Positions 1,745 to 33,752 of a stretch of DNA of 33,752 nucleotides are shown here, piece by piece. The stretch is taken from NCBI GenBank assembly GCA_024697845.1, contig JAILRZ010000015.1:1-33752 (forward strand), read 5' to 3'. Position 1 is the stretch's first letter. Each line of letters begins with the position of its first letter. A program made the translations under genes and the position numbers. The notes beneath the pieces were generated by a model. The model saw only the letters and a list, made by a program, of their open reading frames with translations, was not told where the DNA came from and made no database searches. The stretch is from Eubacterium sp. (GTDB taxonomy: Bacteria > Bacillota > Clostridia > Lachnospirales > Lachnospiraceae).

Positions 1745-2041
1745 GTACCCTAGCTTTCGAGATTTTTGGCAAAACTGGGGTACAGTTTAGGCATCATGAT
1801 TTTTTTGGTGTACCCTGATTTTCAGGTTTTTGGCAAAACCGGGGTACGGTTTAGACCTCAAGATTTTTTAGGTGTACCCTGATTTTCAGGTTTCTTGGCA
1901 AAACCGGGGTACAGTCGTAGCATCAAAAATTTTCAGCTGTACCCTGACTTTTAGGTTTTTGGACTAAATCGGGGTACAGAAGTAAAAAATAAGAAAAAAT
2001 TGTGTATCCCCAAAAACAAGAAATGTTGATATATAGGGTAC
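1745..2041. repeat. Palindromic tandem repeat array 1 (5 hairpin units, 64-65 bp period)
   Basis: Five units begin at 1745, 1810, 1874, 1939 and 2004, so the spacing is 65, 64, 65 and 65. Each hairpin is 38-39 bases and opens with GTACCC and closes with GGGTAC; the stem continues through TTTT/AAAA to about 13 bp in units 2 and 3, with a loop of about 12 bases. Linkers of 25-27 bases separate the units. Units 2 and 3 are nearly identical, units 1 and 4 diverge inside the loop, and unit 5 (2004-2041, GTATCC...GGGTAC) is degenerate but keeps length and phase. The array fills almost the whole gap between the proS terminator and the HAD gene. There is no room for a real ORF. Read on the minus strand, its interior matches array 2. 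Confidence 0.9.
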
Positions 2042-2069
2042 AAAAGCAAAATATGAAGGGAAAAGACAT

Positions 2070-2720
2070 ATGAAAACAATTATTTTTGATATGGACGGTG
2101 TGATTTTTGATTCCGAGCGAGTAATATTTGATGAGTGGAAAGAACTGGCAAAAAAGTACGGTTTTGAAAATCTTGAAATTCCTTACTTTCAATGTATCGG
2201 TGTGAATGCGGCTAGAACAAGAGAAATCATGCTGGATTTTTACGGGCAGGATTTTCCTTACGATGATTACTGCAAGGAACAATCAAGAAGATATCATGAA
2301 AAATATGACGGCGGACGATTGCCGTTGAAAAAAGGTGTGGAAGAACTGTTACAATATTTGAAAAAAGAGGGATTTTTTGTTGCAATTGCTTCTTCTACAC
2401 GACACACTTTGGTAGAACAACAGATTATTGATGCAGGACTTCGTCCGTATTTTGATCGAATTATTGGTGGGGACATGGTTACAAAGAGTAAGCCAAATCC
2501 GGAGATCTTCCAGAAAGCACTGGAAGGTTTGGAGGCAATACCGGGAGAGACAATTGTCATCGAAGATTCCTTCAACGGAATTCGTGCTGCCTTCAATGCA
2601 GGGATGATTCCTGTAATGGTGCCGGATATGATTGCACCAGATGATGAGATGAGAGAAAAAGCAGAAGTGATTTTAAACAATCTGTTGGAAGTGAAAGAAT
2701 ATCTTGAGAAACAGATGTAA
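2070..2720 (+). CDS. HAD-superfamily hydrolase, beta-phosphoglucomutase-like
   Basis: A 216-residue cytoplasmic phosphatase or phosphomutase of HAD subfamily IA. Motif I is FDMDGVIFDSE with nucleophile Asp7 and acid/base Asp9. Motif II is the Ser in IASSTR, motif III the Lys in KSKPNPEIF, and motif IV is IEDSFNGI with its metal-binding acid. Residues about 15-90 form the helical cap. The VIFDSE and EDSFNGI variants are typical of the beta-phosphoglucomutase/2-deoxyglucose-6-phosphatase-like branch, but the substrate cannot be read from the sequence. The start has GAAGGG at 2055-2060 as a ribosome site. The gene follows the first repeat array by 28 bases; no clear promoter was found in between, so the array or its flank must carry the transcription start unless there is read-through from proS. 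Confidence 0.88.
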   Translation: MKTIIFDMDGVIFDSERVIFDEWKELAKKYGFENLEIPYFQCIGVNAARTREIMLDFYGQDFPYDDYCKEQSRRYHEKYDGGRLPLKKGVEELLQYLKKEGFFVAIASSTRHTLVEQQIIDAGLRPYFDRIIGGDMVTKSKPNPEIFQKALEGLEAIPGETIVIEDSFNGIRAAFNAGMIPVMVPDMIAPDDEMREKAEVILNNLLEVKEYLEKQM

Positions 2721-2736
2721 CAAAAGGACTCAATGA

Positions 2737-2765
2737 TTGACACTCCTTTTTGCATGTAGTAAAAT
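2737..2765 (+). promoter_or_regulatory. Sigma-A promoter of the fur-znuC-ygiQ row
   Basis: TTGACA (2737-2742), a 17-base spacer and TAAAAT (2760-2765) form a near-consensus promoter 36 bases before the Fur-family start codon. Confidence 0.8.
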
Positions 2766-2779
2766 GAAAAGGATTTTCA
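2765..2779. promoter_or_regulatory. Candidate autoregulatory operator (inverted repeat)
   Basis: TGAAAA-GGA-TTTTCA is a perfect 6-3-6 palindrome that begins at the last base of the -10 box and covers the expected transcription start of the Fur-family gene. Its position suits a repressor site. It does not match the well-known Fur, Zur or PerR boxes closely, so the assignment is inference from position and symmetry only. Confidence 0.4.
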
Positions 2780-2800
2780 AATTCATTCGTGGAGGAAAAT

Positions 2801-3202
2801 ATGGCAGGAAAATACAAGACCAGACAGAATGAAGTTATCAAAAAATGTCTGGAAGAAAATAAAGATGGATATGTTACTGTCCAGCAGGTGATGGATTACT
2901 TGAAAAAACAGGATATCTCCGTTGGTTTAACGACGATTTACCGTCAGTTGGATCGCTTGGTGGATGAGGGATTTGTAACGAAGGTTAATGTGGAAGGGAA
3001 ATCAGGAGCATGCTATCAGTGGATGCCGGAGCAGGATGAGCAGGACATGATTTATATTCAATGCGAACGATGTGGTGAAGTCTCTAAAATGGAATGTCAT
3101 CATCTGGCAGAATTGTATCATCATGTGGAAAGTGATCATCATTTTAAAGTGAACACAAAGAAGACCGTGTTATATGGTCGATGTGATAAGTGCAATAAGT
3201 AA
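2801..3202 (+). CDS. Fur-family metal-responsive transcriptional repressor
   Basis: A 133-residue DNA-binding repressor of the Fur/Zur/PerR family. The N-terminal winged helix spans about residues 1-75 (TTIYRQLDRLVDEGFV is the recognition-helix region). The C-terminal dimerisation half has two CxxC pairs, Cys88/Cys91 and Cys128/Cys131, forming the structural zinc site, plus His-rich stretches (CHHLAEL, SDHHF) that could hold the sensing metal. I chose ATG 2801 because the in-frame GTG at 2789 is itself part of the GGAGG ribosome site. The ZnuC-like ATPase starts 10 bases downstream, so a zinc (Zur) role is the best guess, but Fur, Zur and PerR cannot be separated by eye. The gene probably represses its own promoter. 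Confidence 0.88.
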   Translation: MAGKYKTRQNEVIKKCLEENKDGYVTVQQVMDYLKKQDISVGLTTIYRQLDRLVDEGFVTKVNVEGKSGACYQWMPEQDEQDMIYIQCERCGEVSKMECHHLAELYHHVESDHHFKVNTKKTVLYGRCDKCNK

Positions 3203-3212
3203 GGTGAAAGAA

Positions 3213-3986
3213 ATGATTTTTGATTTTAAAAATGTTAGTTTGGGATATGACAATTTAGTAGTGGCAAAGGACCTAAATTTTTGTGTGAATCAGGGAGACT
3301 ATGTCTGTATTGTAGGAGAAAACGGTGCAGGAAAAAGTACATTGATTAAAACATTGCTGGGACTGATTAAGCCATTAGATGGAAGTATTGAGAATAATAT
3401 CCATAAAGGAATCGGATATCTGCCACAGCAGACAGCAGTGCAGAGGGATTTTCCGGCCAGTGTCTGGGAAGTAGTTCTTTCCGGCACATTAAATGGAAGT
3501 CGTAAGCTTCCATTTTATACGAAAAAAGATCGAGCATTGGCGCAGGAAAATATGGAAAAAATGCATATTATGCCATTGAAAAAGAACTGTTATCGAGAGT
3601 TATCCGGTGGACAGCAACAGAGAGTTTTGCTGGCCAGAGCACTTTGTGCCACCGATGGAGTGTTGATTCTTGATGAGCCGATTACAGGACTGGATCCTGC
3701 GGCAACAATGGAATTCTACGAAGAACTAAAGAATTTGAATGAGAAAGAAAATGTAACGATTATTATGGTTACTCACGATATTGAAAATGCTATGGATTAT
3801 GCGTCGCATATTTTGCATTTGAAGCAGGATGCGACATTTTTCGGAACAGTGGAGGAATACAAAAAATCCAATGTTTCGAATATGTTTCTGGGGGATACGG
3901 TGCTTCACCGAATTCATCAGGCGGATGAAAAATCAGGGAGAGATGTGGCAGAGACCATTGATCAACTGGTAAAATCAAATAAATAG
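3213..3986 (+). CDS. Metal-type ABC transporter ATP-binding protein (ZnuC-like)
   Basis: A 257-residue ATPase subunit of an ABC importer, closest in style to ZnuC/MntB-type metal transporters (the YLPQQ...[13 protein letters not shown] segment is characteristic). Walker A is GENGAGKST (35-43), the signature is LSGGQ (130-134), Walker B is LILDEP (151-156), and the switch His lies in VTHD. The start is ATG 3213 with AAGGTGA just upstream; a longer frame beginning inside the repressor gene has no ribosome site. It follows the Fur-family gene by 10 bases, so the two are surely co-transcribed. No permease or substrate-binding protein gene is beside it: the next gene is ygiQ. The partner subunits must be encoded elsewhere or have been lost. 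Confidence 0.88.
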
Positions 3987-4003
3987 AACGGATGGATGAT
4001 GTT

Positions 4004-5974
4004 ATGTCTTTTTTACCAATTTCAAAACAGGATATGAAAGAACAGGGAATCGAACAGTTAGATTTCGTGTATGTGATTGGGGATGCTTATGTAGATCATC
4101 CTTCTTTTGGACATGCCATTATCTCCAGAGTATTGCAGGCTCATGGATACACTGTGGGAATTATTTCCCAACCGGATTGGAAGGATGAAGAAAGTATAAA
4201 TATTCTTGGGGAACCACGACTAGCTTTTCTGGTAATGGGCGGAAATATGGATTCCATGGTAAATCATTATTATGTTTCGAAAAAACATCGAGATAGTGAT
4301 GCTTATACACCAGGTGGTGAAATTGGAAAACGTCCGGATCATGCGACAGTTGTTTATTGCAATTTAATCAGAAGGACTTATAAAACAAAACCGATTCTCA
4401 TTGGAGGAATCGAGGCCAGTCTTCGACGAATGGCTCATTACGATTATTGGAGCAATAGTTTTAAGCGTTCTATTCTTTTGGACAGTCAGGCAAACATGAT
4501 TACTTATGGAATGGGAGAAAAATCCATTGTACAGGTAGCGGATGCTTTAGCCAGCGGAATGGATATCAGTGATATTACTTATATTCCGGGAACGGTATTT
4601 AAAACAAAAAATTTGGAATTGGCCTATGACCCAATTATTCTTCCGTCTTATGACGAGATGAAAGAGGACAAGTTGCGTTATGCAGACAGTTTTCGTGTAC
4701 AGTCGGAAAATACGGATCCGTTTAATGGAAAAACATTGGTGGAACCTTATCCGAATGGGGTATATGTGGTGCAAAATCCACCACAGGAACCAATGACCCA
4801 GCAGGAAATGGATGATGTTTATGATCTTCCATATGAAAGGACTTACCATCCGATTTATGAGGCACAGGGAGGAATCCCTGCAATTCAGGAAATTCAATTT
4901 TCATTGATTAGTTGTCGCGGATGTTTTGGGGCTTGTAGTTTTTGTGCGTTGACCTTCCATCAGGGAAGAATTATTCAAACAAGAAGTCATCGCTCCATTA
5001 TTGATGAGGCGAAGAAAATTATTGAAATGCCAAATTTCAAGGGATATATCCATGATGTGGGAGGGCCGACAGCGAACTTCTATCACCCGGCCTGTAAGAA
5101 ACAGCTCAAGTACGGTGTGTGTAAACATAAGCAATGTTTGTGGCCGAAACCGTGTGAAAATCTGGATACAGACCATAGTGAATATTTGAAACTGTTACGG
5201 AAGTTAAGAGAATTACCAAAAGTGAAGAAAGTATTTGTTCGTTCCGGAATTCGTTTTGATTATATTATGGCAGACAAAGACAAGAGCAGCACTTTCTTCA
5301 AGGAATTGGTAGAGCATCACATTAGCGGACAGTTAAAGGTGGCACCGGAACATATTTCCGATGTGGTATTGTCCTATATGGGAAAACCACAAAATTGTGT
5401 CTATGAAGGCTTTATTGAGAAGTATTACAAGCTCAATGAAAAGGCTGGAAAGAAACAGTTCGTGGTTCCGTATTTGATGAGTTCTCATCCCGGCTCTACG
5501 ATGAAAGAAGCTGTTAAGCTGGCAGAATATTTAAGAGATATCGGATACAATCCACAGCAGGTACAGGATTTTTATCCGACGCCATCCACAATGTCTACAG
5601 TGATGTATTACACTGGGGTGGATCCGAGAACCATGAAGGAAGTATATACACCGAAGAACCCTCATGAAAAGGCAATGCAGCGAGCGTTGATGCAATATCG
5701 TAATCCTGCCAATTATGAATTGGTAAAAGAAGCCTTGCATATTGCGGGACGAGAGGATTTGATCGGTTTTGATAAGCATTGTCTGATTAAACCGCGAAAA
5801 TTAAGTAACAATCGGGTCAATTATAAGAAAAATGAAAAACAGGGAAATGGCTCGAAACGAAACTTAGCAAAAGGACGAGGAAACGGTTCAAAGGGAAAGG
5901 GGAAAAATGGAAACACCTGGAATGAAAAACGGAATCATTCCAGTAAAAAAACAGGAAGAGGAAAAAGAAAATAA
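4004..5974 (+). CDS. YgiQ-family radical SAM protein
   Basis: A 656-residue iron-sulfur enzyme of the YgiQ family, whose biochemical reaction is not established. The N-terminal domain (about 1-280) is the family-specific part, opening with MSFLPIS and [17 protein letters not shown]. The radical SAM cluster motif CxxxCxxC is Cys307, Cys311 and Cys314 (CFGACSFC). Further conserved cysteines follow in [21 protein letters not shown]. The last 50 residues are rich in Lys, Gly and Asn, suggesting a disordered nucleic-acid-binding tail. I prefer ATG 4004 because family members usually begin at MSFLPIS and GGATG lies about 8-12 bases upstream; ATG 3992 in the same frame is possible. The gene starts 17 bases after the ATPase gene, so it appears to belong to the same transcript. 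Confidence 0.92.
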
Positions 5975-5994
5975 GTCGTTGAAAGGGAGAAAAA

Positions 5995-8673
5995 ATGGGA
6001 GCAAAAAAGAAAATTTTAGCTTATGTATTGTCGCTATGTTTAGTATTTAGTGGAATTACTCTATCAAAGCCACAGATTAATAATGCAGCAGACAGTACAA
6101 CAGTTTATTTTTTGAACTCTGATAATTGGAATGTAATTTATGGATATGCATATGCAAATGATGCCGGTGTGTCAGATGGTTGGCCGGGAACAAAAGCAAC
6201 GAAAGCATCTCAGATGGGAGAGGGATGGTATCAGGTTGTTGTTCCTAGAAGTGCTTCAGCAGGTTTTAGCATGATTTTGAATGACGGCTCCGGAAACAGA
6301 GCAGAAGTTTATATTAACAATGACATTTATACTTATGTAACTGCAGAAGCAAATGTCTATAGTTCGAAGGAAGCTGCAGAATATGCTGTGGGTTTTTCAT
6401 CAGGAGAAGAACCAACAAAAAAGAATTATTATGTGGATGCTACAGGAGTTGGAGCAAGCTTGCCTTATACATCTTATGAAGCAGAGGATGCAGAAACCAA
6501 TGCTACCGTTTTAAAAGATAATAGAACTTATATTACCGCAGTTCAGTCAGAAGCCAGTGGAAGAGAAGCGGTCAAATTACAAAATACAGGAGATTACGTT
6601 GAGTTTCAATTGACAAAACCGGCCAATACGATAGTTTTAAGGTACAGCATGCCCGACAGCACTGATGGGAACGGATTAAACGCGTCTCTATCGTTATATG
6701 TGAATGGAAATAAGTCAAAGGATTTGTCTTTAACTTCAAAGTATGCCTGGGTATATGGAGCATATCCCTATGATAACAATGTCAATGGAGGAAATGGTCA
6801 TCGATTTTTTGATGAGACCCGTGCATTCTTTAAAGAAGGAACCTTAGATGCGGGAACAAAAATCCGTTTGCAGAAAGATGCATCCTGTAATGCTGCTTAT
6901 TACATTGTGGATTTTATCGAATGTGAAAATGTTACTGCAAAGGAACGCCCGGACAACTGCTTATCCATAACAGAGTTTGGTGCAGTAGCAGATGACAATA
7001 AGGACGATTATAATGCATTTTTATCCTGTGTTCAGGAAGCGAAAAATCAACATAAGGAAGTTTGGATTCCTACAGGAACTTTTCAATTGGAACAAAAAAG
7101 AAATCTGGTAGTTTCGGATGTTACGATTCGTGGCGCGGGAATGTGGTATTCAAACCTGGTAGGTCTGGGAGCTGCTTTTGATTATTCCGGAACCTGTAAA
7201 TTTTATGATTTCTCGATGACAGGACTTGCAGATCATCGATTGGATGCGGAGGATTTACCGGCGTTTGGGGGGACTTCGGCAAGTACAAATTGTGTCATTG
7301 AAAATATTTGGATGGAACATGTTAAAGTAGGTGTTTGGACGTATGCTGCAAAAAATCTGACAATTCAGGGATGTAGAATTAGAAATACCTATGCAGACGG
7401 AATGAATCTTTGCAGCGGAACAAGCGGAGCAATTGTAAAGGACAATTCTGTTAGAAATACCGGCGATGATGGAATTGCTATTTGGCCATGGCAGGGAAAT
7501 TGCTATAACAATACGATTTGTAATAATACAGTGCAGATGCCGATTCTTGCAAATTGTATTGCGGTTTATGGTGGATATGGAAATGTGGTTTCCAATAATT
7601 ATGTGACAGATACGGTAAATAATGGTGGTGGAATATGTGTATCCAGCCAGTTTGACACTTCAAATGGATTTTCAGGAACAATTCAGGTGAATGGAAATAT
7701 CCTGGTTCGGTGTGGAACACAGCATTCTGATTATAAATATAATGTAGGAGCAATTTGGTTTTGGGTGACCAATGCAGCAATGAATGCAGATTTCCAAATT
7801 TCGGATAATATTATTATCGACTCAACTTATGAGGGAATTCTGTTTGATTGTTTTAATGAATTATCCCGAGTGACAGTTTCAGATACCAGTATTTATGGCC
7901 CACAAACTAATGGTATTGATGTTCGCGGATACAAACAGGCTTCTCTGGTAATTGATGGGGTAGCGGTCGTAGACTATAACGGAGTACGTTTAAACAATGA
8001 AAATAATAACTGCTCCATATCATATTTAAATCAGGGAATCTACGATGGAACAGCACCGGAAACTCCAACAGAGCCTGTGACAGAAACTCCAACAGAACCT
8101 ATCACTGAAGCAACAACAGTCAAGGAAGAACCTAAGATTTCTGAAAAGGTTAAGATTGAAGGATATCAGATTAGTACAACGGCAGGTGGAAGTCGTGTGA
8201 TTGCATCTGTGGAACCGGAAATTGATGGGAAAAAAGTTGTAGAATATGGTTTAATTTATGGATTGGCGATGTATAATGGAAGAGTAACATCGTGGACACA
8301 AGATGATATGATTGTCCATTCAGATAATTATTTTGTAAAAGGCTATGACAGTAAGGGGCTTGGTATCGTGGAACAACAGTTGGGAAGTTCTTCGTCGGCG
8401 ATAGAATATAGTTTGGTAATGCACTTTGGAGCACACTCAAAAGTTGCATATGAAGCTGACTATAAAGTGAGAGGTTATGCAAAGTTGTCTGATGGAACTT
8501 ATGTTTATAGTGAAATTTGTTCCTATACGATATTTAAGATAGCAAATGTACTCTATCAAAATCAATTGATGCCTCGTGAATCCGCACATGACTATCTGTT
8601 CAATAATATTTTAACAGTGGTAGATTCCACGTACAAAAAAATTGATTTTAAGAAAATTACCTGGGTAAGATAA
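5995..8673 (+). CDS. Secreted GH87-like alpha-1,3-glucanase with carbohydrate-binding modules
   Basis: An 892-residue exported protein. Residues 1-31 are a signal peptide. Residues about 35-125 (VYFLNSDNW, GWPGTKA, GEGWYQVVVP) resemble a CBM25/CBM26 alpha-glucan-binding module. Residues about 155-315 (YEAEDAETNA, EASGREAVKLQNTGDYVEF, YSMPDS.DG) match the CBM35/CBM6-like module that precedes the catalytic helix in GH87 mycodextranases. Residues about 320-690 are a right-handed beta-helix starting SITEFGAVADD. Asp468 (YADGMN) and Asp491-Asp492 (NTGDDGIAIW) fit the three-aspartate arrangement of GH87. A Thr/Pro/Glu linker leads to a C-terminal domain of about 170 residues that I do not recognise. 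Predicted role: hydrolysis of alpha-1,3-glucan (mutan or fungal wall). The ribosome site is GGGAG, 20 bases after ygiQ. A pectate-lyase-like or GH28-related annotation is the alternative. Confidence 0.75.
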   Translation: MGAKKKILAYVLSLCLVFSGITLSKPQINNAADSTTVYFLNSDNWNVIYGYAYANDAGVSDGWPGTKATKASQMGEGWYQVVVPRSASAGFSMILNDGSGNRAEVYINNDIYTYVTAEANVYSSKEAAEYAVGFSSGEEPTKKNYYVDATGVGASLPYTSYEAEDAETNATVLKDNRTYITAVQSEASGREAVKLQNTGDYVEFQLTKPANTIVLRYSMPDSTDGNGLNASLSLYVNGNKSKDLSLTSKYAWVYGAYPYDNNVNGGNGHRFFDETRAFFKEGTLDAGTKIRLQKDASCNAAYYIVDFIECENVTAKERPDNCLSITEFGAVADDNKDDYNAFLSCVQEAKNQHKEVWIPTGTFQLEQKRNLVVSDVTIRGAGMWYSNLVGLGAAFDYSGTCKFYDFSMTGLADHRLDAEDLPAFGGTSASTNCVIENIWMEHVKVGVWTYAAKNLTIQGCRIRNTYADGMNLCSGTSGAIVKDNSVRNTGDDGIAIWPWQGNCYNNTICNNTVQMPILANCIAVYGGYGNVVSNNYVTDTVNNGGGICVSSQFDTSNGFSGTIQVNGNILVRCGTQHSDYKYNVGAIWFWVTNAAMNADFQISDNIIIDSTYEGILFDCFNELSRVTVSDTSIYGPQTNGIDVRGYKQASLVIDGVAVVDYNGVRLNNENNNCSISYLNQGIYDGTAPETPTEPVTETPTEPITEATTVKEEPKISEKVKIEGYQISTTAGGSRVIASVEPEIDGKKVVEYGLIYGLAMYNGRVTSWTQDDMIVHSDNYFVKGYDSKGLGIVEQQLGSSSSAIEYSLVMHFGAHSKVAYEADYKVRGYAKLSDGTYVYSEICSYTIFKIANVLYQNQLMPRESAHDYLFNNILTVVDSTYKKIDFKKITWVR

Positions 8674-8734
8674 ATTAAGCTCGTTATCGAGGAAACTCAT
8701 ATGAATATAAACGAAACTTAGGAGGTAGAAAGAA

Positions 8735-9172: not shown

Positions 9173-9191
9173 GATTGGAAAGGAGAATCAT

Positions 9192-10928: not shown

Positions 10929-10943
10929 GATAGGATTTAGGTC

Positions 10944-25293: not shown

Positions 25294-25367
25294 AATAAAC
25301 TCCATTCTTTTGCCTGAATAGGCGAGATTAAAATTATTAGAAAGTCCGATAGGACAAGAACTTATCG

Positions 25368-25395
25368 ATTATAGCACAGGGATAGGAAAAATCAA
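25368..25395 (-). promoter_or_regulatory. Minus-strand promoter of the second SulP gene
   Basis: On the minus strand TTGATT (25390-25395), a 16-base spacer and TATAAT (25368-25373) give a good sigma-A promoter, leaving a leader of about 70 bases. Confidence 0.65.
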
Positions 25396-25433
25396 GGGGA
25401 AATATTCCGGATACAATAAATTGATAGAGGCAA

Positions 25434-25462
25434 TTGACATTCGTTATTTCTTATAATATAAT
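25434..25462 (+). promoter_or_regulatory. Consensus sigma-A promoter of the aspS T-box transcript
   Basis: TTGACA (25434-25439), exactly 17 bases, TATAAT (25457-25462). Confidence 0.92.
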
Positions 25463-25468
25463 CGAAAA

Positions 25469-25762
25469 CGATAGCGACGACGAAGAGAAGTAGCCGTACT
25501 TATCGCTGACAGAGAGCAGGCGTTGGTGGAAGTCCTGTAGAATGAATTACGGTGAATAACACTTCAGAGCTGTGAACTGAAAGAGATTTTTCTTTAGTAG
25601 GGGATCCGTCATCTGCACGAGACGCAGAAGGTCTTTCATAAAGCGAAGACCGTGAGGGGCTGCAGTTGCAGTAAATCAGGTGGTACCGCGGACTTTTATT
25701 AAATTGATTATAAATAAAGAGTTCGTCCTGAAAGAGTGAATCTTTTAGGATGAACTCTTTTT
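25469..25762 (+). ncRNA. T-box riboswitch leader of aspS, probable AAC specifier
   Basis: A tRNA-sensing leader that lets transcription continue when the matching tRNA is uncharged. The T-box itself is AGGTGGTACCGCG at 25678-25690. The terminator is the 25717-25762 hairpin (about 13 bp plus an inner helix) ending in TTTTT. Stem I carries AGTA (25489-25492) and ACAGAGAGC on its 5' side, and GTGAATAACACTTCAGAG on its 3' side. Aligning the conserved ACxTCxGAG that follows a specifier places AAC (25558-25560, asparagine) in the codon position; no GAC or GAT lies in this loop. The 5' end is estimated from the promoter. T-box identity is certain, the specifier reading is not. Confidence 0.93.
25717..25762 (+). 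terminator. T-box regulated terminator
   Basis: AAGAGTTCGTCCT pairs with AGGATGAACTCTT (one wobble), with an inner GAAAGA/TCTTT helix and a T-run. It is the off-state structure, competing with the antiterminator that contains the T-box. Confidence 0.92.
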
Positions 25763-25819
25763 GTTATACGACGAGGAAAATGCAGAAAGCTTGCTTTTAT
25801 GCATTTGACGACCGTGATA

Positions 25820-25854
25820 CAATCCCGAAACAAGTTTAGAGATTTCGGTGATTG
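25820..25854 (+). other. Stem-loop between T-box and aspS start
   Basis: CAATCCCGAAA (25820-25830) pairs with TTTCGGTGATTG (25843-25854) over 11 bp with one bulged T, and a 12-base loop. It lies 31 bases before the aspS start codon, beyond the T-box terminator. No T-run follows, so it is not a simple terminator. Role unknown. Confidence 0.5.
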
Positions 25855-25885
25855 CATTTGAAAAAATAGTAAAGGAGAAAAAACA

Positions 25886-27643
25886 ATGGACGTTAACACA
25901 AACAACATTTATCGTGATGTGACAATGGATCAGCTTTCAGAAACAAACGTAGGTCAGACAGTGAAAATTTCTGGTTGGGTGGAAAACATTCGTGACCACG
26001 GTGGCGTTTCATTTATTGACTTAAGAGATATGTATGGCGTAATGCAGGTCGTTATGCGTGATACATCTCTGTTGGAAGGATTAAGTAAGGAAGATTGTAT
26101 TTCTGTAGAGGGACCAATCGAACACAGAGATGAAGAAACTTACAATCCAAAGATTCCTACAGGAACAATTGAATTAGAGGCAAAAACTGTAAAGGTTTTA
26201 GGAAAAGTTTACAGACAGCTTCCTTTTGAAATTATGACTTCAAAAGAAACAAGAGAAGATGTGAGACTGAAATATCGTTACCTGGATCTTAGAAATGCAA
26301 AGGTTCGTGACAATATGATTTTCCGTTCCAATGTCATTTCTTATCTTCGCCAGAAGATGACAGATTTAGGATTCTTAGAAATCCAGACACCGATTCTTTG
26401 TGCGTCTTCTCCGGAAGGTGCCAGAGATTATATTGTACCTAGTAGAAAATTCAAGGGAAAATTCTACGCATTGCCACAGGCACCACAGCAGTATAAGCAG
26501 TTGCTGATGGTTTCCGGGTTTGATAAATATTTCCAGATTGCTCCATGTTTCAGAGATGAAGATGCCAGAGCAGACCGTTCACCGGGAGAATTTTATCAGT
26601 TAGACTTTGAAATGAGTTTTGCTACACAGGAAGATGTTTTCCGTGTAGGAGAAGAAGTGTTAGCAGATACATTCAACAAATTTGCACCGGAAGGATACGA
26701 AGTAACACAGGCTCCGTTTCCGGTAATTAGTTTCAAAGAAGCAATGTTAAAATATGGTACTGATAAGCCGGATCTGAGAAACCCATTGGAAATTATTGAT
26801 GTTACTGATTTCTTCCAGAGATGTACATTCAAGCCATTCCATGGAAAGACTGTTCGTGCAATCGTTGTAAATCAGAAGTTATCAAAAGGTCAGCATGAAA
26901 AATTATTGAAGTTTGCCCAGAGCATTGGCATGGGTGGACTTGGTTATCTGGAAGTTCTAGAAGATGGTTCTTACAAGGGACCAATTGACAAGTTTATTCC
27001 AGATGATATGAAAGATGAAATCAGAAGTCAGGCAAACTTAAAGCCAATCGATACCATTTTCTTCATTGCGGATAACGAAAGAAATGCATCCCTTTATGCA
27101 GGACAGATTCGTACAGCATTAGGAGAAAGACTGGATCTGATTCAGAAGAACCAGTATAAGTTCTGTTATATCAATGACTTCCCAATGTATGAATATGACA
27201 ATGAAACAAAGCAGATGATTTTCACACACAATCCGTTCTCAATGCCACAGGGTGGTTTGGAAGCTTTGGAAACAAAGAATCCGGAAGAAATCCTTGCATA
27301 TCAGTACGATATCGTATGTAACGGTGTGGAATTATCATCAGGAGCTGTCAGAAACCACGATATGGAAATTATGGTAAAGGCTTTTGAAATTGCCGGATAT
27401 ACTGAGGAAGACTTAAAAGAAAAGTTTGGAGCACTTTATAATGCATTCCAGTTTGGAGCACCACCTCATGCAGGTATGGCACCGGGAGTAGACCGTATGA
27501 TTATGCTTCTTCGTGATGAAGAAAACATCCGTGAAGTCATTCCATTCCCAATGAATGGTAATGCACAGGATTTGATGTGCGGCGCACCGGGAGAGGTTAC
27601 GGAGCAGCAGCTTAGGGAAGTACATATTAAAGTGAGACAATAA
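25886..27643 (+). CDS. aspS: Aspartyl-tRNA synthetase, bacterial type
   Basis: A 585-residue class IIb synthetase that charges tRNA-Asp. The N-terminal OB-fold (about 1-120) binds the anticodon. The catalytic core starts near 140 with RLKYRYLDLRNAKVRDN; motif 2 is FRDEDARADRSPGEFYQLD; the bacterial GAD insertion spans about 290-410; motif 3 is GAPPHAGMAPGVDRMIMLL. Residue 38 is His (IRDHGG), as in non-discriminating AspRS enzymes, where discriminating ones such as E. coli have Leu; the second known determinant is not the expected Gly, so the specificity call is open. It is controlled by the T-box upstream. Ribosome site AAAGGAG. A secreted-protein gene follows after 24 bases without a terminator. 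Confidence 0.97.
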   Translation: MDVNTNNIYRDVTMDQLSETNVGQTVKISGWVENIRDHGGVSFIDLRDMYGVMQVVMRDTSLLEGLSKEDCISVEGPIEHRDEETYNPKIPTGTIELEAKTVKVLGKVYRQLPFEIMTSKETREDVRLKYRYLDLRNAKVRDNMIFRSNVISYLRQKMTDLGFLEIQTPILCASSPEGARDYIVPSRKFKGKFYALPQAPQQYKQLLMVSGFDKYFQIAPCFRDEDARADRSPGEFYQLDFEMSFATQEDVFRVGEEVLADTFNKFAPEGYEVTQAPFPVISFKEAMLKYGTDKPDLRNPLEIIDVTDFFQRCTFKPFHGKTVRAIVVNQKLSKGQHEKLLKFAQSIGMGGLGYLEVLEDGSYKGPIDKFIPDDMKDEIRSQANLKPIDTIFFIADNERNASLYAGQIRTALGERLDLIQKNQYKFCYINDFPMYEYDNETKQMIFTHNPFSMPQGGLEALETKNPEEILAYQYDIVCNGVELSSGAVRNHDMEIMVKAFEIAGYTEEDLKEKFGALYNAFQFGAPPHAGMAPGVDRMIMLLRDEENIREVIPFPMNGNAQDLMCGAPGEVTEQQLREVHIKVRQ

Positions 27644-27667
27644 ATAAAAAAAGAGAGGTATTGAAAA

Positions 27668-28297: not shown

Positions 28298-28320
28298 AAA
28301 AGAATATGAGGAAAATGAAA

Positions 28321-28365
28321 ATTGGTCTTGCCATATGCAAGGCCGATTTTTTTTTTTTTTTTTTT
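28321..28365 (+). terminator. Terminator with 19-base T-run
   Basis: An 11-bp stem ATTGGTCTTGC/GCAAGGCCGAT (two wobbles), loop CATAT, then an uninterrupted run of 19 T (28347-28365). Confidence 0.9.
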
Positions 28366-28438
28366 CATAGGAAATTATAACATTTTGTAAAACAGAGGGA
28401 TTCTTATCATTAATAACAAGTGAAAGAGAGGATGGAAT

Positions 28439-29539
28439 ATGAGTTTTATGAAAAAAATGATAGGGGCGATGGTAATTGTGGCATTTTTTGTATTGGCCGG
28501 AAATACTACAAAGACGAATGCAGTGATGATTCCAAGGGAAAAAAATGGAATGCGTCAGCCGGTTTGTGTGAAGTATCAATTAATTGATTTTAATACGGTG
28601 AAGTTATCTTGGGAAAAAGAAAAGAATGTGTTCTATTATCTGGTGGATTTTCAATTGCAGGGGGCGGACAGAATTTGCAAGAGATTTGCAGTGAAGAAAG
28701 ATTCTCTTACAGTGAAAAAATTGAAAGCCAATCAGGACTATGTTGCTATTATTACACCGATTGCGGTGAAAAAGGGAAAAAGACTTTGTGGAGAACCTAC
28801 AAAAATAGAAATTTCTACAAAAATTGAAACCCCACAAGTGTATGACCGAGGGTTCGACGGAAAGAAAATCAGTCTGGATTTTAAGACTAGCGATACAGGA
28901 AGCAAAATATTAGTATATCGTTCTGATTCAAAGGATGGCGTTTACAGAAAGGTTTCAGACAAGGTTTCATATGGTGCATTTAATATTAGTAATTGTATTC
29001 CGGGGCTTACATTAACACCCCTTGCAAGTATCCAGGATACTGCAGTGAAAGGTGGAAAAACCTACTATTACAGAGTAAGAGCTTATAGTAATATGCATGG
29101 TGTGATTCGTTACAGTGCCTTTTCTCCGGTAATTGAATGCTCTGCAAGGTACGAAACCCCACACATTTATGGAGAAAAGATTAAAGATGATGGAAAGGAA
29201 GTAATTTTTAGACTGTCTTCTGATAGCTATAACTACAATATACAGCTTACGAAAGATGCATATATTTCAGGAAGTTCTCGCTTGAACTACCAGGTTTATT
29301 ATGCAAAGAGTCAGAGTGATGAATTTAAACCAATTGAGGAGGAAATAAATATTGCACCGGGAGGTACGATTTATGTAAAAATAAATACAAATCGAGTGCT
29401 TTCGGAAAATGATTACGTTAGATTTTATCTTCACAGTGAATTTTATCCGGCTTCTCGAACAAGTTATATGGGATATGACTTGCGTTATGAGGTAGGAGCC
29501 GATGAATTTATGGTTTGGCCGGACATCATGGTCGCTTAA
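28439..29539 (+). CDS. Secreted Fn3-domain protein, function unknown
   Basis: A 366-residue exported protein. Signal peptide about 1-28. Residues about 38-130 form one fibronectin-III-like unit (YQLIDFNTVKLSWEKEKNVFYYLVDF, LKANQDYVAIITPIAVKKG) and about 132-235 a second (ISLDFKTSDTGSKILVYRSDSKDGVYRKV, GGKTYYYRVRAYSN). The remaining about 130 residues are beta-rich and not recognised. No enzyme motif is visible. Less Lys-rich than its upstream neighbour, though the two share the Fn3 style and lie in the same orientation, divided by a terminator. GAGAGGA is the ribosome site. It is probably a surface or extracellular-matrix-type protein. Confidence 0.72.
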   Translation: MSFMKKMIGAMVIVAFFVLAGNTTKTNAVMIPREKNGMRQPVCVKYQLIDFNTVKLSWEKEKNVFYYLVDFQLQGADRICKRFAVKKDSLTVKKLKANQDYVAIITPIAVKKGKRLCGEPTKIEISTKIETPQVYDRGFDGKKISLDFKTSDTGSKILVYRSDSKDGVYRKVSDKVSYGAFNISNCIPGLTLTPLASIQDTAVKGGKTYYYRVRAYSNMHGVIRYSAFSPVIECSARYETPHIYGEKIKDDGKEVIFRLSSDSYNYNIQLTKDAYISGSSRLNYQVYYAKSQSDEFKPIEEEINIAPGGTIYVKINTNRVLSENDYVRFYLHSEFYPASRTSYMGYDLRYEVGADEFMVWPDIMVA

Positions 29540-29576
29540 AATAATGGGTTATTCCCTTTGGGAATAGCCCATTATT
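29540..29576 (+). terminator. Strong hairpin after the Fn3-protein gene
   Basis: A 17-bp stem (29540-29556 with 29560-29576, one wobble) with a 3-base loop; the first base is just after the stop codon. The T-run is absent, so termination may be weak, or the hairpin may protect the 3' end. Confidence 0.7.
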
Positions 29577-29580
29577 ACTG

Positions 29581-29634
29581 GGATGCAACCGCTGGTTGAC
29601 AAATTGATTAGTCAACTTGGTGGTGCGCAACCGG
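29581..29634. other. Imperfect inverted repeat upstream of the XRE gene
   Basis: A perfect GTTGAC/GTCAAC core (29595-29600, 29611-29616) lies between imperfectly matched outer arms that contain GCAACCGC and GGTGGTGCGC. It may be a structured RNA or an operator. It is about 75 bases before the XRE promoter. Confidence 0.35.
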
Positions 29635-29706
29635 GAAAAATGATATGTTTTCTTCATCAGCTGAGACATTGAAGTCGGAAAAGATTTTAATGAAGAACTA
29701 ACAGGT

Positions 29707-29735
29707 TTGGTATTTGCAAAGTTATAAGTTATAAT
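29707..29735 (+). promoter_or_regulatory. Promoter of the membrane XRE gene
   Basis: TTGGTA (29707-29712), 17 bases, TATAAT (29730-29735), 22 bases before the start codon. Confidence 0.7.
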
Positions 29736-29757
29736 AAGAAAGAATGGAGGAGACGAA

Positions 29758-30753
29758 ATGAATTTAGCAGATAAGATTATTTTACTTAGAAAACAAAAAG
29801 GTTGGTCCCAGGAAGAATTGGCAGCACAGATGGATGTGTCCAGACAATCCGTATCCAAATGGGAGAGCGGAGCCAGTATTCCGGATATTGATAAAATATT
29901 ATTGCTTAGCAAAATATTTGGAATTTCTACAGATTATCTATTGAAGGCAGAAAATGAGATTGCTCATAAGGAAAGTACAGATGAACCGGTAGAGAAAGAA
30001 ACACCGAAGAGATTTGTTTCAAGAGATGAAGCAAGTGAATTTCTTGACGTACAGAAAAAATCAGCAAAGAAAATTGCACTTGGTGTTATGCTATGCATCT
30101 TATCGCCGGTAACGTTGTTAGTTTTATTAGGAATGCGAGAGGGAAAGTATTTGGTTCTTTCCGAGAAGATGTGCGTGATTGCAGGTCTTTGTACATTATT
30201 TGTTCTGGTAACAATTGCCGTAGCAATTTTTGTTGTTACCGGTCTTTCAATGAGTCGATTTGAATATTTGCAAAAGGAAGAAATTTTGTTGGATCCGGAT
30301 TTTGAAAAGGAAGTTATTCGGAAAAGTGATGACTTTGCACCAAAGTTTGCCAGAAACATTGCAGTAGGAATTACATTATGTATCATATCTGCAATTCCGA
30401 TAGTAGTTTTAGGCGTGTTAGAAAAAGAGGGTTTGCTAATCATTTCAGTAGGTGTTCTGTTAATGCTTGTTTCTGTTGCAGTAAATATTTTTGTCTGTTC
30501 CGGAATGGAAAAGGGCGGATTCGACCAATTATTGCAACGAGAAGGATATTCTGTAGAACGTAAGGAAACAAGCCAGGAAATGGAGACTTTTGCAGGCGTT
30601 TACTGGCTGGTGATTACAGCATTGTATTTGGCAATCAGCTTTATTTGGAACAGTTGGAGAATCAGCTGGCTGATTTGGCCAATTGCAGGAATGATGTATG
30701 GAGCAATCACAATTATTGTGGAACATCGGCATAAGAAGAATAGGGAAGTTTAG
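29758..30753 (+). CDS. Membrane-anchored XRE-family regulator
   Basis: A 331-residue protein joining a DNA-binding head to a membrane tail. Residues 1-65 are a typical Cro/C1-type helix-turn-helix ([29 protein letters not shown], then [21 protein letters not shown]). A charged linker of about 40 residues follows. From about 105 on there are three pairs of hydrophobic helices, six membrane segments in all (near 106-125, 137-160, 200-220, 226-248, 278-296, 300-320), with two similar repeats each opening [13 protein letters not shown] or [13 protein letters not shown]. Such HTH-membrane proteins may sense envelope state, but targets are unknown. Ribosome site GGAGG. No target operon is obvious; the second repeat array follows 26 bases after the stop. 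Confidence 0.85.
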
Positions 30754-30779
30754 GAAATGCCTTATCGATGGTGTCTAAT

Positions 30780-31032
30780 TAGTAGCGGTTTTTGCACGTT
30801 GTGAATTCCGCTACTATTTTTATGAGGGATCATTAGTAGCGGTTTTGCCATATCCTGAAATCTGCTACTAGTTCTGAGACGAATTATTAGTAGCGATTAT
30901 GCCATATCCTGAATGCTGCTACTAGTTCTAGGATGAATCATTAGTAGCAGATTAGTCATATCTTAAATTCCACTACTATTTCAGGACCAAATCATTAGTA
31001 GCTATTTTGCCATATCTCAAATTCCGCTACTA
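30780..31032. repeat. Palindromic tandem repeat array 2 (5 units, exact 54 bp period)
   Basis: Hairpin units of 37 bases start at 30780, 30834, 30888, 30942 and 30996, every one exactly 54 apart, with 17-base linkers between them. Units open TAGTAG and close CTACTA; the stem is 9 bp in unit 1 and 6-9 bp with wobbles or mismatches in the others. The typical interior is CGGTTTTGCCA-TAT-CCTGAA. Linkers usually end ATCAT or ATTAT. The units are diverged in the loop but never in length. The array occupies nearly all of the 332-base gap between the XRE and polymerase genes, and its last unit ends 20 bases before the polymerase -10 box. Confidence 0.92.
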
Positions 31033-31048
31033 TTTTTACAAAATCATG

Positions 31049-31057
31049 TGGTATAAT
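31049..31057 (+). promoter_or_regulatory. Extended -10 promoter of the polymerase-YolD pair
   Basis: TGGTATAAT, 28 bases before the start codon. The -35 position (about 31029-31034) falls in the end of the last hairpin of array 2. No GAAC...GTTC SOS box is visible near it. Confidence 0.5.
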
Positions 31058-31085
31058 AATTGAACAAAAAAATGAGGAGGTATAG

Positions 31086-32456
31086 ATGAGCAAAAAAACA
31101 TATATAGCAATTGATTTAAAATCATTTTATGCCTCCGTGGAATGCGTGGAGAGGGGATTGAATCCTCTAACTACCAATCTGGTAGTGGCAGATGCTTCCA
31201 GAACTGCAAAAACAATCTGCCTGGCAGTTACTCCGTCCTTGAAGAGGTATGGGCTTTCCGGCCGTAGCAGATTGTTCGAGGTGGAACAAAAGGTCAAGGA
31301 AATTAAGCAGGCTACCGGACAAACAATAGAATATATTACGGCGGTTCCGCGAATGGGCTTGTATATTAAATATTCTGCGTTGATTTATAGCATCTACTTA
31401 AAATATGTCAGCCCGGAAGATATTCATGTTTATAGTATTGATGAAGTTTTTATGGACGTTACACATTACCTGGCCTTATATCAGATGAGTGCCAAGGAAC
31501 TGGCGAAAAAGATTGTGTTGGATGTCTATCAAAACACAGGAATTACAGCAACGGTAGGACTGGGAACGAATTTGTATCTGTGTAAGATTGCTATGGATAT
31601 TGGCGCAAAGCATATTCTACCGGATGAGGATGGGGTTCGTATTGCGGAAATGGATGAAATTTCTTATCGGGAAAAATTATGGGAACACAAGCCGCTGACG
31701 GATTTTTGGAGAATCGGAGCCGGCATTACAAGAAAACTGGCACAACATGGAATATATACTATGGGAGATATTGCCAGGATGTCTCTACAAAATGAAGACT
31801 GGCTTTATAAACTTTTTGGCATTGATGCGGAAATTTTAATTGACCATGCATGGGGATATGAGCCTTGTACGATTTCTCATATTAAACAATATAAACCGAA
31901 AAGTAACAGCTTGGGTTCCGGCCAGGTGCTGCAGGAACCTTACAAGAATGAAAAAGCAAGAATTGTTGTACGTGAAATGACAGAACAGTTGGTACTTGAT
32001 TTGGTGGATCAGGATTTGGTGACGGAATCATTGACTCTGCATATCGGTTATGATCGCATTAACGTGGACGAGGGGAATTACGACCGGGAAATCAAGGCAG
32101 ATTACTATGGGAGAAAGGTACCAAAACCGGCTCACGGGACGGCAAATTTGGGGGCACCATCTTCCTCCACGGCGGAAATTGTGGGAGCGGTGCTGGCATT
32201 GTTTGATCGAATTACCGATCCGTCATTATTCATTCGGAGAATTAATATTTCGGCTAATCATGTAACACCAAGAGGATTTGAACAATTAAATATTTTTTCA
32301 AATCCAGAGCAGTTGGAAAAAGAGCGAAAGATGCAAAAGGCAATGCTGGATATTCATAAGCGTTTTGGAAAAAATGCAATCTTGAAAGGAACAGATTTGC
32401 AAAAAGGAGCAACCACAATAGAACGAAATCATCAGATTGGAGGGCATAAGGCATAA
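31086..32456 (+). CDS. Y-family DNA polymerase (UvrX/YqjW-type)
   Basis: A 456-residue translesion polymerase of the DinB/UmuC family. The palm acids are Asp10 (AIDLKSFYASVEC) and Asp119-Glu120 (YSIDEVFMDV). The thumb has a helix-hairpin-helix-like LWEHKPLTDFWRIGAGITRKLAQHGIYTMGDIA. The little finger follows, and Gln400-Phe404 (QLNIF) is a typical beta-clamp-binding motif. The CLAVTPSLKRYGLSGRSRLFE segment and coupling to a YolD protein match the YqjW/UvrX branch of Firmicutes rather than classic DinB. The start has GAGGAGG. Its stop codon overlaps the YolD start (TAATG). Regulation by LexA is expected from the family, but no SOS box is seen. Confidence 0.92.
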   Translation: MSKKTYIAIDLKSFYASVECVERGLNPLTTNLVVADASRTAKTICLAVTPSLKRYGLSGRSRLFEVEQKVKEIKQATGQTIEYITAVPRMGLYIKYSALIYSIYLKYVSPEDIHVYSIDEVFMDVTHYLALYQMSAKELAKKIVLDVYQNTGITATVGLGTNLYLCKIAMDIGAKHILPDEDGVRIAEMDEISYREKLWEHKPLTDFWRIGAGITRKLAQHGIYTMGDIARMSLQNEDWLYKLFGIDAEILIDHAWGYEPCTISHIKQYKPKSNSLGSGQVLQEPYKNEKARIVVREMTEQLVLDLVDQDLVTESLTLHIGYDRINVDEGNYDREIKADYYGRKVPKPAHGTANLGAPSSSTAEIVGAVLALFDRITDPSLFIRRINISANHVTPRGFEQLNIFSNPEQLEKERKMQKAMLDIHKRFGKNAILKGTDLQKGATTIERNHQIGGHKA

Positions 32457-32866
32457 TGGAGCAGAACCGGGATATCATCCATAAAAAATGGACAGGAACC
32501 GTAAGCCACAGACCGATGTCAATGGAAGAACGGGCAAAGATTTTTTTGCCTTTTGCAGCATTGAAAGGTCATGAGGAAGCGATCGCGGAAAAACAGCGCA
32601 TTACGGTGGAAAGAATCGATTTGTCGGAAGAAATGCGTGAAGTTCTAGATCAGCGATTTCAAGAAATCAGGCAACTAGTGGAACAGAAGGAGCATCCCAT
32701 TGTTACGGTGATTTATTTTGAAAAGGATAAGTATCGGCAGGGAGAAGGAGTCTATTTGAAACTAACTGGGATGGTGAGCAGACTGGATATTGAATCCAGA
32801 TTCATTCAGGTAATTCAGACAAAAATTAACTTTGAAAACATTCGTAGTATAGAACTGGAAGTATAG
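32456..32866 (+). CDS. YolD-like protein
   Basis: A 136-residue protein of the YolD family, typically found beside UvrX/YqjW-type polymerases and thought to be a regulatory or accessory partner (a UmuD-like role has been suggested). The defining RPMSMEERAKIFLPFAALKGHEEAI segment is at about 20-44. The C-terminal half has the usual mix of strands ending in INFENIRSIELEV. The first base of its ATG is the last base of the polymerase stop codon, so translation is coupled. The HAD phosphatase gene follows 13 bases after it. Confidence 0.88.
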   Translation: MEQNRDIIHKKWTGTVSHRPMSMEERAKIFLPFAALKGHEEAIAEKQRITVERIDLSEEMREVLDQRFQEIRQLVEQKEHPIVTVIYFEKDKYRQGEGVYLKLTGMVSRLDIESRFIQVIQTKINFENIRSIELEV

Positions 32867-32879
32867 GAAAGGAAAGAAA

Positions 32880-33527
32880 ATGGTTCAGGCAGTTATTTTT
32901 GATTTAGATGGAACATTATTAAATACAATTGACGATTTGGCAAACTCCGTGCGATTTGTGCAGAGAACTTTTGGATGGGAAGAAGATTCCACAGAACTGG
33001 TAAAGCAGCATGTGGGAAACGGAATTCGAAATCTGATTATTCGTTCTGTTCCTCATGGAGAAGAAAATCCATTGTTTGAGGAAGCGCTCAGCACCTTTAA
33101 AAAATATTACCAGGAGCATTGCGAAGATTTGACAGATTTGTATCCGGGAATTCTTGAACTGCTGAAGGCGTTAAAGGAAAAGAAAGTGAAGATGGCCATT
33201 GTGTCAAACAAAGCGCATCCGGCAGTGTTAAAGCTCTATGATACCTATTTTAAAGAGTATATGGATGTGGCATTGGGAGAAAATGAAGAAGCAGGCATTC
33301 GGAAAAAGCCGGCACCGGATATGGTGGAATTGGCAATGGAACGCCTGGGGGTGTCAGAAGCACAATCCATTTATGTAGGCGATTCCGATGTGGATAAGGC
33401 CACTGCAGACAATTCCGGATTAGATTGCGTTCTGTGTGAATGGGGATTTCGGGAGCGAGAACTGTTAGAGAGCCTGGAACCGAAAGCGATGATCAAAGAG
33501 CCGATGGAACTACTTGAACAGCTTTAA
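32880..33527 (+). CDS. HAD-superfamily phosphatase, Gph-like
   Basis: A 215-residue phosphatase of HAD subfamily IA, in the phosphoglycolate phosphatase style. Motif I is FDLDGTLLNTIDDLANSV with Asp8 and Asp10; the cap follows to about residue 85. Motif II is the Ser in IVSNKAH, motif III the Lys in RKKPAPDM, motif IV is YVGDSDVDKATA. The GNGIRNLI and LYPGILELLKAL segments are typical of Gph. It would remove 2-phosphoglycolate, for example from DNA repair of 3' ends, which fits its place behind a translesion polymerase, but other sugar phosphates are possible. Ribosome site AAGGAAAG. The third repeat array starts 8 bases after the stop codon. Confidence 0.9.
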   Translation: MVQAVIFDLDGTLLNTIDDLANSVRFVQRTFGWEEDSTELVKQHVGNGIRNLIIRSVPHGEENPLFEEALSTFKKYYQEHCEDLTDLYPGILELLKALKEKKVKMAIVSNKAHPAVLKLYDTYFKEYMDVALGENEEAGIRKKPAPDMVELAMERLGVSEAQSIYVGDSDVDKATADNSGLDCVLCEWGFRERELLESLEPKAMIKEPMELLEQL

Positions 33528-33535
33528 TGGGGGAT

Positions 33536-33752
33536 TAGTAGTAGAGGTGCGAGATGTTCAACACATACTATTAGGTTCTGGGGGCGTATTAGTAGTAACT
33601 TAGCTAAATGTTCAATTTTGCTACTATGTCTTTGGGGGCATATTAGTAGTGACTTAGATAAATGTTCAATTTTGCTACTATGTCTTTGGGGGCATATTAG
33701 TAGTGACTTGGCTAAATATCCAATTTTGCTACTAAGTTCCAAAGCAATTATT
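33536..33752. repeat. Palindromic tandem repeat array 3 (4 units, exact 54 bp period, runs off window)
   Basis: Units start at 33536, 33590, 33644 and 33698, each exactly 54 apart, with 37-base hairpins opening TAGTAG and closing CTACTA (unit 1 ends CATACTATT). Interior consensus is TGACTTAGCTAAATGTTCAATTTTG; most linkers are TGTCTTTGGGGGCATAT or close. The final linker ends at 33751 and base 33752 is T, exactly where a fifth TAGTAG would start, so the array probably goes on. It begins directly after the gph-like stop codon. Confidence 0.88.

Follow-up and report, generated by a model that had tools for sequence, protein, structure and literature searches.

Tandem arrays of dyad-ended repeats are a dispersing, apparently RAYT-less family of intergenic DNA in Eubacterium

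Repetitive extragenic palindromes (REPs) are small extragenic palindromes, most of which carry an unpaired GTAG or CGTC tag (PMC3733652). Most of them are located between unidirectional or convergent genes, with several classes per genome, some of these species-specific (PMC3733652, PMC3116915). Those with a CGTC tag apparently have no dedicated transposase (PMC3733652). Tandem clusters of REPINs (REP doublets forming hairpins) also occur; in SBW25 a REP-associated tyrosine transposase (RAYT) adjoins one cluster of each class (PMC3116915). The word Firmicutes does not appear in the main text of PMC3733652. Here we describe tandem arrays of short units with dyad-symmetric ends in Eubacterium sp. 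(Lachnospiraceae; GCA_024697845.1, a 210-contig draft of 2.41 Mb, hereafter the source genome). Our starting point was one entire contig of this genome (G000:C16, JAILRZ010000015.1; 33,752 nt), referred to as the window. The genes of the window resemble those of Clostridia-type bacteria. A search of open-licence papers gave, among the matches listed, no description of such arrays in this group.

The arrays are a real, selected and dispersing family of tandem dyad-ended DNA and are apparently RAYT-less. They show uniform ends within each class, a fixed geometry, no covariation beside the ends, similar arrays at unrelated loci and orthologous sites that are empty or differently occupied. From these sequence comparisons we see an even chance that they are a mobile satellite DNA, REP-like yet RAYT-less, which a putative DNA-binding protein recognises.

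The window has three intergenic arrays with 14 dyad-ended units in total, whose coordinates, ends and periods agree with those listed in an earlier note on this sequence. Array 1 (1745..2041, GTACCC class) consists of five units (1745-1783, 1810-1847, 1874-1912, 1939-1977, 2004-2041), four with perfect GTACCC/GGGTAC ends and one with a single mismatch; the last unit starts with GTATCC. Its spacers are 26 bp long and the successive periods are 65, 64, 65 and 65. Array 2 (30780..31032, TAGTAG class) has five perfect TAGTAG/CTACTA units of 37 bp each (30780-30816, 30834-30870, 30888-30924, 30942-30978, 30996-31032) with spacers of 17 bp and a period of 54. Array 3 (33536..33734) belongs to the same class with the same period and consists of one degenerate unit at 33536 followed by three perfect units (33590-33626, 33644-33680, 33698-33734), the last base being 18 bases short of the contig end.

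Four end classes occur in the source genome: TAGTAG, GTACCC, TGCACCC and TACGAATG, abbreviated TAG, GTA, TGC and TAC. The pattern TAGTAGN18-30CTACTA matches 63 times against 10 for the reversed control and GTACCCN18-32GGGTAC 35 times against 1, while patterns of three arms give 50 forward matches for TAG and 24 matches for GTA with none in either reversed control. The two remaining classes, TGCACCC..GGGTGCA (period 63) and TACGAATG..CATTCGTA (period 53), were found by a sequence-blind tandem-repeat scan of 20 stretches of the source genome (L084-L103, ~224 kb), which had been picked without regard to arrays. They account for four of the five noncoding arrays with a period of 40-110 in these stretches. 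The fifth is a 44-bp tandem repeat with 2.7 copies and without dyad ends (L091 16275-16392, contig C8 of the source genome).

More copies and further end classes, for which the earlier note suggested to look, are thus present. Among 23 genomes of the genus, GTACCC units are found in eight, five of which hold at least 20 (source genome 35, G007 21, G004 25, G009 48, G019 54). TGCACCC units are found in five (source genome 53, G016 18, G009 8, G004 1, G007 1). In the source genome, G007 and G004 there are adjoining TACGAA-ended units spaced by 53 bp, the underlying pattern being looser with match counts that do not surpass the control in most genomes. A near-identical dispersed TACGAA..TTCGTA element of 35-36 bp occurs in five copies in G013 (C1:133799, C2:95334, C2:133437, C3:92151, C4:166437). 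A fifth end class, GGGCATAT..ATATGCCC, is present in the genus member G020 with units of 38 bp and spacers of 26 bp, and the first unit of one of its arrays has GGCAGAT/ATCTGCC ends. Pattern counts in G020 gave none of the four ends of the source genome, apart from one TACGAA match below control. Another genome, G022, carries a tandem repeat with a period of 74 whose ends are ATATATGTAA/TTACATATAT and which may be a further class (L302 7803-8153).

The three-arm TAG pattern at exact spacing was found in one of 60 genomes tried and the three-arm GTA pattern in one of 299 genomes drawn from the family, in both cases the source genome itself. Since these patterns fix the spacing, arrays of other period are missed by them: G019, with GTA units at a period of 94, scored 0. 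When a single stretch from each of 20 other genera of the family was scanned for repeats (302 kb in total), three noncoding arrays with periods of 41, 48 and 53 were obtained, none of them with known ends. The array of period 48 (G029, L278 3043-3157, 2.4 copies) has 8-bp dyad ends, GGCAGCCC/GGGCTGCC. Matches outside the genus, namely two TAGTAG units in a Leptospirales metagenome-assembled genome (L053) and matches inside open reading frames of four viral contigs, were judged to be coincidence.

The geometry of the arrays was evaluated using a table of 67 arrays with 304 units and 237 intervals from the source genome and five relatives. Units were located by their ends, single units were retained only if perfect and non-TAG, and L106 was omitted since L186 overlaps it; the arrays of G009 C6 and of G020 and the GTACCTT array of G004 are outside this count. 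The unit is mostly 36-39 bp long with dyad ends of 6-9 bp, and the period is 53/54, 63-66 or 93-95. As eight two-unit arrays match their own modal period trivially, intervals were tallied against the class period of the respective genome, from which 231 of 237 deviate by at most 1 bp (the others measure 192, 192, 126, 167, 167 and 168). Only three intervals are exact multiples of the class period, hence few units were overlooked within arrays. The TAG period is 54 in 45 of 45 intervals, the TAC period 53 in 4 of 4 and the TGC period 63 in 55 of 57 (source genome). For GTA it is 65 in 25 of 29 (source genome), 64 in 19 of 20 (G004) and 94 in 45 of 52 (G019). The fixed unit length and period described by the earlier note for the window thus hold with few exceptions across 67 arrays. 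In the 94-bp GTA arrays of G019 the 56-bp spacers carry recurring palindrome-like motifs, e.g. CAAACTATATGTTG and CACTTATAAGTG (L186 12490-12811, L188 1564-1772).

Within a class and genome, consensus ends are 99-100% identical between arrays and interiors 51-65% in the best orientation. Spacers are 75% similar within arrays, the value falling to ~50% just beyond the first or last unit and to ~40% farther out. Between adjacent units of equal length we counted 2234 substitutions, and 11 intervals are off the modal period of their array. Alignments of the source genome with G004 contain 36 gap events for 457 substitutions in nearby noncoding DNA and 36 for 4283 in coding DNA. Per substitution, period changes are ~16-fold rarer than gap events in nearby noncoding DNA, a ratio to be taken as a guide as it sets unlike kinds of comparison side by side and leaves unit-length changes with intact period uncounted.

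Palindromes could also have expanded locally in tandem by replication slippage, which would need no trans-acting factor, the sameness within a class reflecting common descent. In line with this, units are homogenised within arrays: adjacent units differ at 15-33% of the positions in interior and spacer, or at 41-65% in the single TAC array, and copy number varies between species. The rarity of period changes argues against slippage, and so do the same ends at many loci despite interiors that are 35-49% different between arrays of one class. Moreover, the same geometry of 38+26=64 is found with unlike ends, among them those of the GGGCATAT class of G020. We therefore regard slippage as decidedly improbable.

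At orthologous sites arrays can be present, absent or of another class. Array 1 lies between a synthetase gene (2..1693, + strand, 5' end beyond the contig; Pfam PF00587, PF03129, PF04073), which we take from its domain order to be prolyl-tRNA synthetase-like (proS), and a HAD-family hydrolase gene (2070..2720, + strand; PF13419). At this site G009 has a close copy and G004 a different GTA array, while G007 is empty with ~25 bp separating the terminator region from the HAD gene. Array 1 and the copy in G009 are 92% alike over 243 bp (87-96% in windows), and G004 and G009 are 54-72% alike within the array. Most 100-column windows of the flanking genes show G004 to be closer to G009 than to the source genome, with values of 0.86-1.00 for proS and of 0.72-1.00 for the HAD gene. 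In such windows the source genome compared with either of them gives 0.84-0.97 in proS and 0.68-0.81 in the HAD gene, and its fourfold-site identity to G009 is 0.67 and 0.38, respectively. Array 1 thus does not follow the gene tree, for which we favour an exchange of the array between lineages. Replacement in G004 combined with unusual conservation elsewhere could explain the discordance as well.

The array 2 site is occupied by a plain hairpin with T run and no array in G004, G009 and G007. At the array 3 site an array with GTACCTT..AAGGTAC ends (38-bp units at a period of 64) is present in G004 and none in G007 and G016; the G009 contig stops before this site. In addition, similar arrays were found at unrelated loci. 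Two arrays of G019 at 645 kb and 650 kb are 89% alike over 440 bp including the spacers, with no blast match between their flanks, and two arrays of G004 on C41 and C54 are 82% alike over 374 bp, again including spacers, in inverted orientation. These similarities, together with orthologous sites that are empty or otherwise occupied, bear out the selected or self-spreading character proposed in the earlier note. A 43-bp tandem repeat with 2.9 copies and hairpin-like pieces in its unit precedes the same gene in G004 and G009 (L229 10301-10423, L230 498-623).

Selection could also act on the host. The arrays would then be binding sites for a nucleoid, segregation or regulatory protein, useful to the host and not mobile by themselves. 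Consistent with this, length is kept per substitution as strictly as in coding DNA (11:2234 versus 36:4283, p 0.13), and in a two-unit array common to the source genome and G004 all 24 arm bases are conserved, along with 48 of 53 in the interiors and 13 of 26 in the spacer, next to 68 of 78 in the flanks. From its GC skew, the origin of G019 is near 0.5 Mb, and 13 of 18 GTA arrays are located in the origin half, a weak bias in the same direction. Against host-useful sites stand the several unrelated end classes within one genome, the presence of the TAG class at exact spacing in a single one of the 60 genomes tried, the orthologous sites with an array, none or another class, and the similar arrays at unrelated loci. 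We consider host binding sites unlikely, if less so than slippage.

The earlier note regarded the hairpin as the feature that is kept. The folding potential beside the ends does not agree with this: at four positions next to the arms no covariation was detected, 116 of 244 cells being Watson-Crick compared with 133 expected when partners are re-dealt. The test was based on 61 array consensuses after omission of three orthologous duplicates and, of the remaining 64, three in length groups of fewer than 5. In the oriented consensuses the interior T tracts of either half moreover lie on the same strand. The arms themselves are near-invariant within a class and little informative on covariation. 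Between classes both arms differ together (GTACCC, GTACCTT, TGCACCC, TAGTAG, TACGAATG, GGGCATAT), which would be expected of a dyad protein site too. Given the lack of covariation beside the ends and the one-stranded T tracts, a dyad read by a protein dimer would suit the data better than a selected hairpin, and we favour recognition at the DNA level. The periods of 53/54, 63-65 and 94 are all near whole helical turns. Helical phasing of A/T tracts was rejected as a general rule: the strongest harmonic is close to 10.5 bp for TGC and at 10.4 bp for GTA of G019, but at 7.7 bp for TAG and at ~9.2 bp for the remaining GTA arrays.

The placement between genes, already claimed in the earlier note, holds for the whole set. 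By gap type, 27 of the 67 arrays are co-directional, 20 convergent and 5 divergent, and 15 lack one or both neighbours in the stretch. Background gaps of at least 150 bp (n=153) comprise 116 co-directional, 13 convergent and 24 divergent ones; they may include gaps with arrays, and an array with orthologues in other species was counted once per species. The convergent excess (20 of 52 arrays with both neighbours versus 13 of 153 background gaps) has a p of 2e-6, the divergent deficit among the same arrays is not significant (p 0.36). The excess is driven by the GTA class, which provides 18 of the 20 convergent arrays (18 of 33 GTA arrays with both neighbours, compared with 1 of 13 for TGC).

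A terminator-like hairpin precedes the array at 31 of 75 array-facing gene ends and is present at 40 of 141 controls (p 0.07), the scanned stretches differing in length between both groups. At the other 44 gene ends, including those facing arrays 2 and 3, the scan finds no terminator before the array. The scan overlooks some terminators: it detected the hairpin of proS in G004 and missed the copy in the window. This copy, a terminator-like hairpin with T run directly 5' of array 1 (1708..1739, + strand), was read from the sequence; it is also present in G004, G009 and G007. A good share of the arrays is probably located outside transcripts. TTTTT occurs within 25 nt before the array at 20 of 75 gene-facing sides, at 12 of 44 other sides and in 166 of 1410 background windows. 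T runs are thus enriched, yet not specific to gene ends, and terminators were rejected as array targets.

These data bear on a further alternative, that the arrays act as RNA hairpins at gene 3' ends, i.e. as terminators, mRNA stabilisers or protein-binding RNAs. It would agree with the over-representation of convergent gaps, as far as the GTA class goes, with the gene ends devoid of a detected terminator and with the position of array 2, where relatives carry a terminator. On the sense strand G.U pairs also outnumber A.C (106:66 by cells and 18:11 by arrays with 6 ties, sign test 0.26). In contrast, gene ends with arrays already possess a terminator-like hairpin at least as often as controls, covariation is lacking in the pairs next to the ends, and the T tracts are one-stranded in both halves. 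Furthermore the loops are large, and the strict spacing is unexpected for separate hairpins. We hold an RNA function to be improbable. When the window was scanned against Rfam at gathering scores, the arrays matched no RNA family; the sole match is a T-box leader elsewhere (25468-25733, + strand, RF00230, 95 bits), which precedes the gene at 25886. The stretch 25434-25692 in this region is 96.5% identical in G004 and G009.

The genes next to the other two arrays are likewise on the + strand. Array 2 is preceded by a gene with an XRE-like helix-turn-helix (HTH) domain (29758..30753, PF01381) and followed by a gene for a Y-family DNA polymerase (31086..32456, DinB/UmuC-like, PF00817 and PF11799). 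Directly 3' of array 2 we found the promoter-like element TGTGGTATAAT (31047..31057, + strand), with identical letters upstream of dinB in G004, G009 and G007, which we infer to be the dinB promoter. Upstream of array 3 is a gene for another HAD-family hydrolase (32880..33527, PF13419).

The earlier note further read the three arrays as one hairpin-repeat family with a kept loop and exchanged ends. Indeed CGGTTTTGCCA followed by CCTGAAA is found in both units it had compared (1810-1847 and 30834-30870). This hand-picked pair scores 15, which is reached by 0 of 5000 letter shuffles. On the level of array consensuses, the score of array 1 with array 2 is 12, the top of 81 TAG-GTA pairs; a best pair of 12 is reached in 7 of 60 letter shuffles and in 19 of 100 dinucleotide-preserving shuffles. 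In addition, the two classes differ in unit and spacer length, and the T-tract rule orients array 1 opposite to the alignment of the earlier note. As the match does not stand out among cross-class pairs and the orientations are opposite, an exchange of ends around a kept loop is not established. The mean interior similarity between classes is reached by dinucleotide shuffles in 0 of 100 cases for TAG-GTA, 0 of 100 for TAG-TGC and 2 of 100 for GTA-TGC. The interior of the single TAC array has no clear excess over letter shuffles (TAG-TAC 8 of 60, GTA-TAC 5 of 60). It is therefore plausible that TAG, GTA and TGC form one family with interiors weakly related on average.

Taken together, we propose that the arrays are non-autonomous dispersed satellite DNA in several species of one genus. 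The unit is a 36-39 bp sequence with class-specific dyad ends and a strand-asymmetric T-tract interior, repeated head-to-tail at a fixed period. Array size would shift by tandem duplication, blocks of several units would be copied into other intergenic gaps, and arrays may occasionally be transferred between species. A putative DNA-binding protein, most likely of the recombinase or transposase type, would recognise the dyad ends as double-stranded DNA, and ends and spacing would be kept because of this recognition. New classes could arise as the specificity of this protein shifts, and the benefit would accrue to the element itself. More tentatively, and with less confidence than in this scheme, the arrays may represent a prokaryotic satellite DNA of a new kind. 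In it a fixed geometry would be read by a fast-evolving putative DNA-binding enzyme and whole arrays would move between loci and species, the ends being class- or species-specific and unit and spacer length lasting.

Several observations weigh against mobile satellite DNA recognised at the DNA level. The closest arrays at unrelated loci are just 89% identical, so that any spread would be old or slow, and the two G019 arrays concerned are also alike in a short stretch that lies between terminator and array. The genes around the three-array cluster of G019 (643-655 kb) look ordinary, with no transposase seen by eye on the translations, a family search not being part of this inspection. In the two-unit array shared with G004 the interiors (48/53) are barely more conserved than the flanks (68/78). 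Since units were located through their ends, substitution rates of the arms are biased low. Farther inside the interior, two positions show pairing with a p of 0.03 among ~50 position tests, and the G.U excess is a weak, non-significant lean towards RNA. Finally, A/T-tract phasing fails for TAG and for GTA arrays outside G019.

If the proposal is true, some dispersed palindromic repeats of bacteria do without RAYT transposases, and the several distinct end classes of one genus would be a natural series in which to find the reader protein and follow the evolution of its specificity. In practical terms the arrays may break draft assemblies, as several of them, array 3 included, are at or near contig ends.

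A linked RAYT-type transposase, suggested by the earlier note, did not emerge. PF01797 (Y1 transposase) is over the cut-off in 5 of 23 genus genomes, near-full or full length in G004, G013 and G014 and short in G005 and G022. G004 has two full-length matches and is the only array-rich genome checked with a full-length Y1. None over the cut-off was obtained in G019 (one contig, 54 GTA units), G009, G007 and G016, all genomes except G019 being drafts. The source genome has one sub-threshold fragment of 21.6 bits beside an IS200-like hairpin, presumably an IS200 remnant as judged by eye. Linkage of the arrays to RAYTs was rejected, as full-length Y1 is absent from the array-rich genomes checked save G004. 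At the end of contig C105 of the source genome (L123) an IS200-like remnant with hairpin is located, and the contig end seems to enter another TAGTAG unit.

Compared with known systems, the arrays recall the RNA arrays of type III toxin-antitoxin systems (ToxI-like), which are tandem repeats of about 35-40 nt. Unlike these, the window arrays neighbour synthetase, HAD, HTH and dinB-like genes, and no toxin was seen. The arrays resemble those of CRISPR (clustered regularly interspaced short palindromic repeats) in their dyad-ended repeats of 36-39 bp, which in two classes have a period of 63-65 bp. They differ in that the stretches between units are repeats themselves (75% alike) instead of unique spacers and that there are many small arrays. 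A CRISPR-looking array with 11.6 copies, period 66 and 66% matches is present in G002 (L107 65-826).

REPs with a CGTC tag resemble the arrays as dispersed palindromes without a known enzyme; the arrays differ by ends without CGTC, the fixed period and the strand-asymmetric T-tract interior. With regard to REPs, bacterial interspersed mosaic elements (BIMEs) and REPINs together with their RAYT (TnpA-REP), the arrays have no unpaired GTAG or CGTC tag: GTAG is found only inside the paired TAGTAG arm, and the ends of the GTA, TGC, TAC and GGGCATAT classes contain neither motif. Full-length Y1 is missing from the array-rich genomes checked except G004, and tandem arrays of near-invariant period are the rule here. 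As the tag and, G004 aside, the RAYT are lacking, we do not class the arrays as REPs. What they have in common with these systems are short dispersed extragenic palindromes with several end classes and tandem clusters, the placement in co-directional and convergent gaps and the copying of present arrays to new loci.

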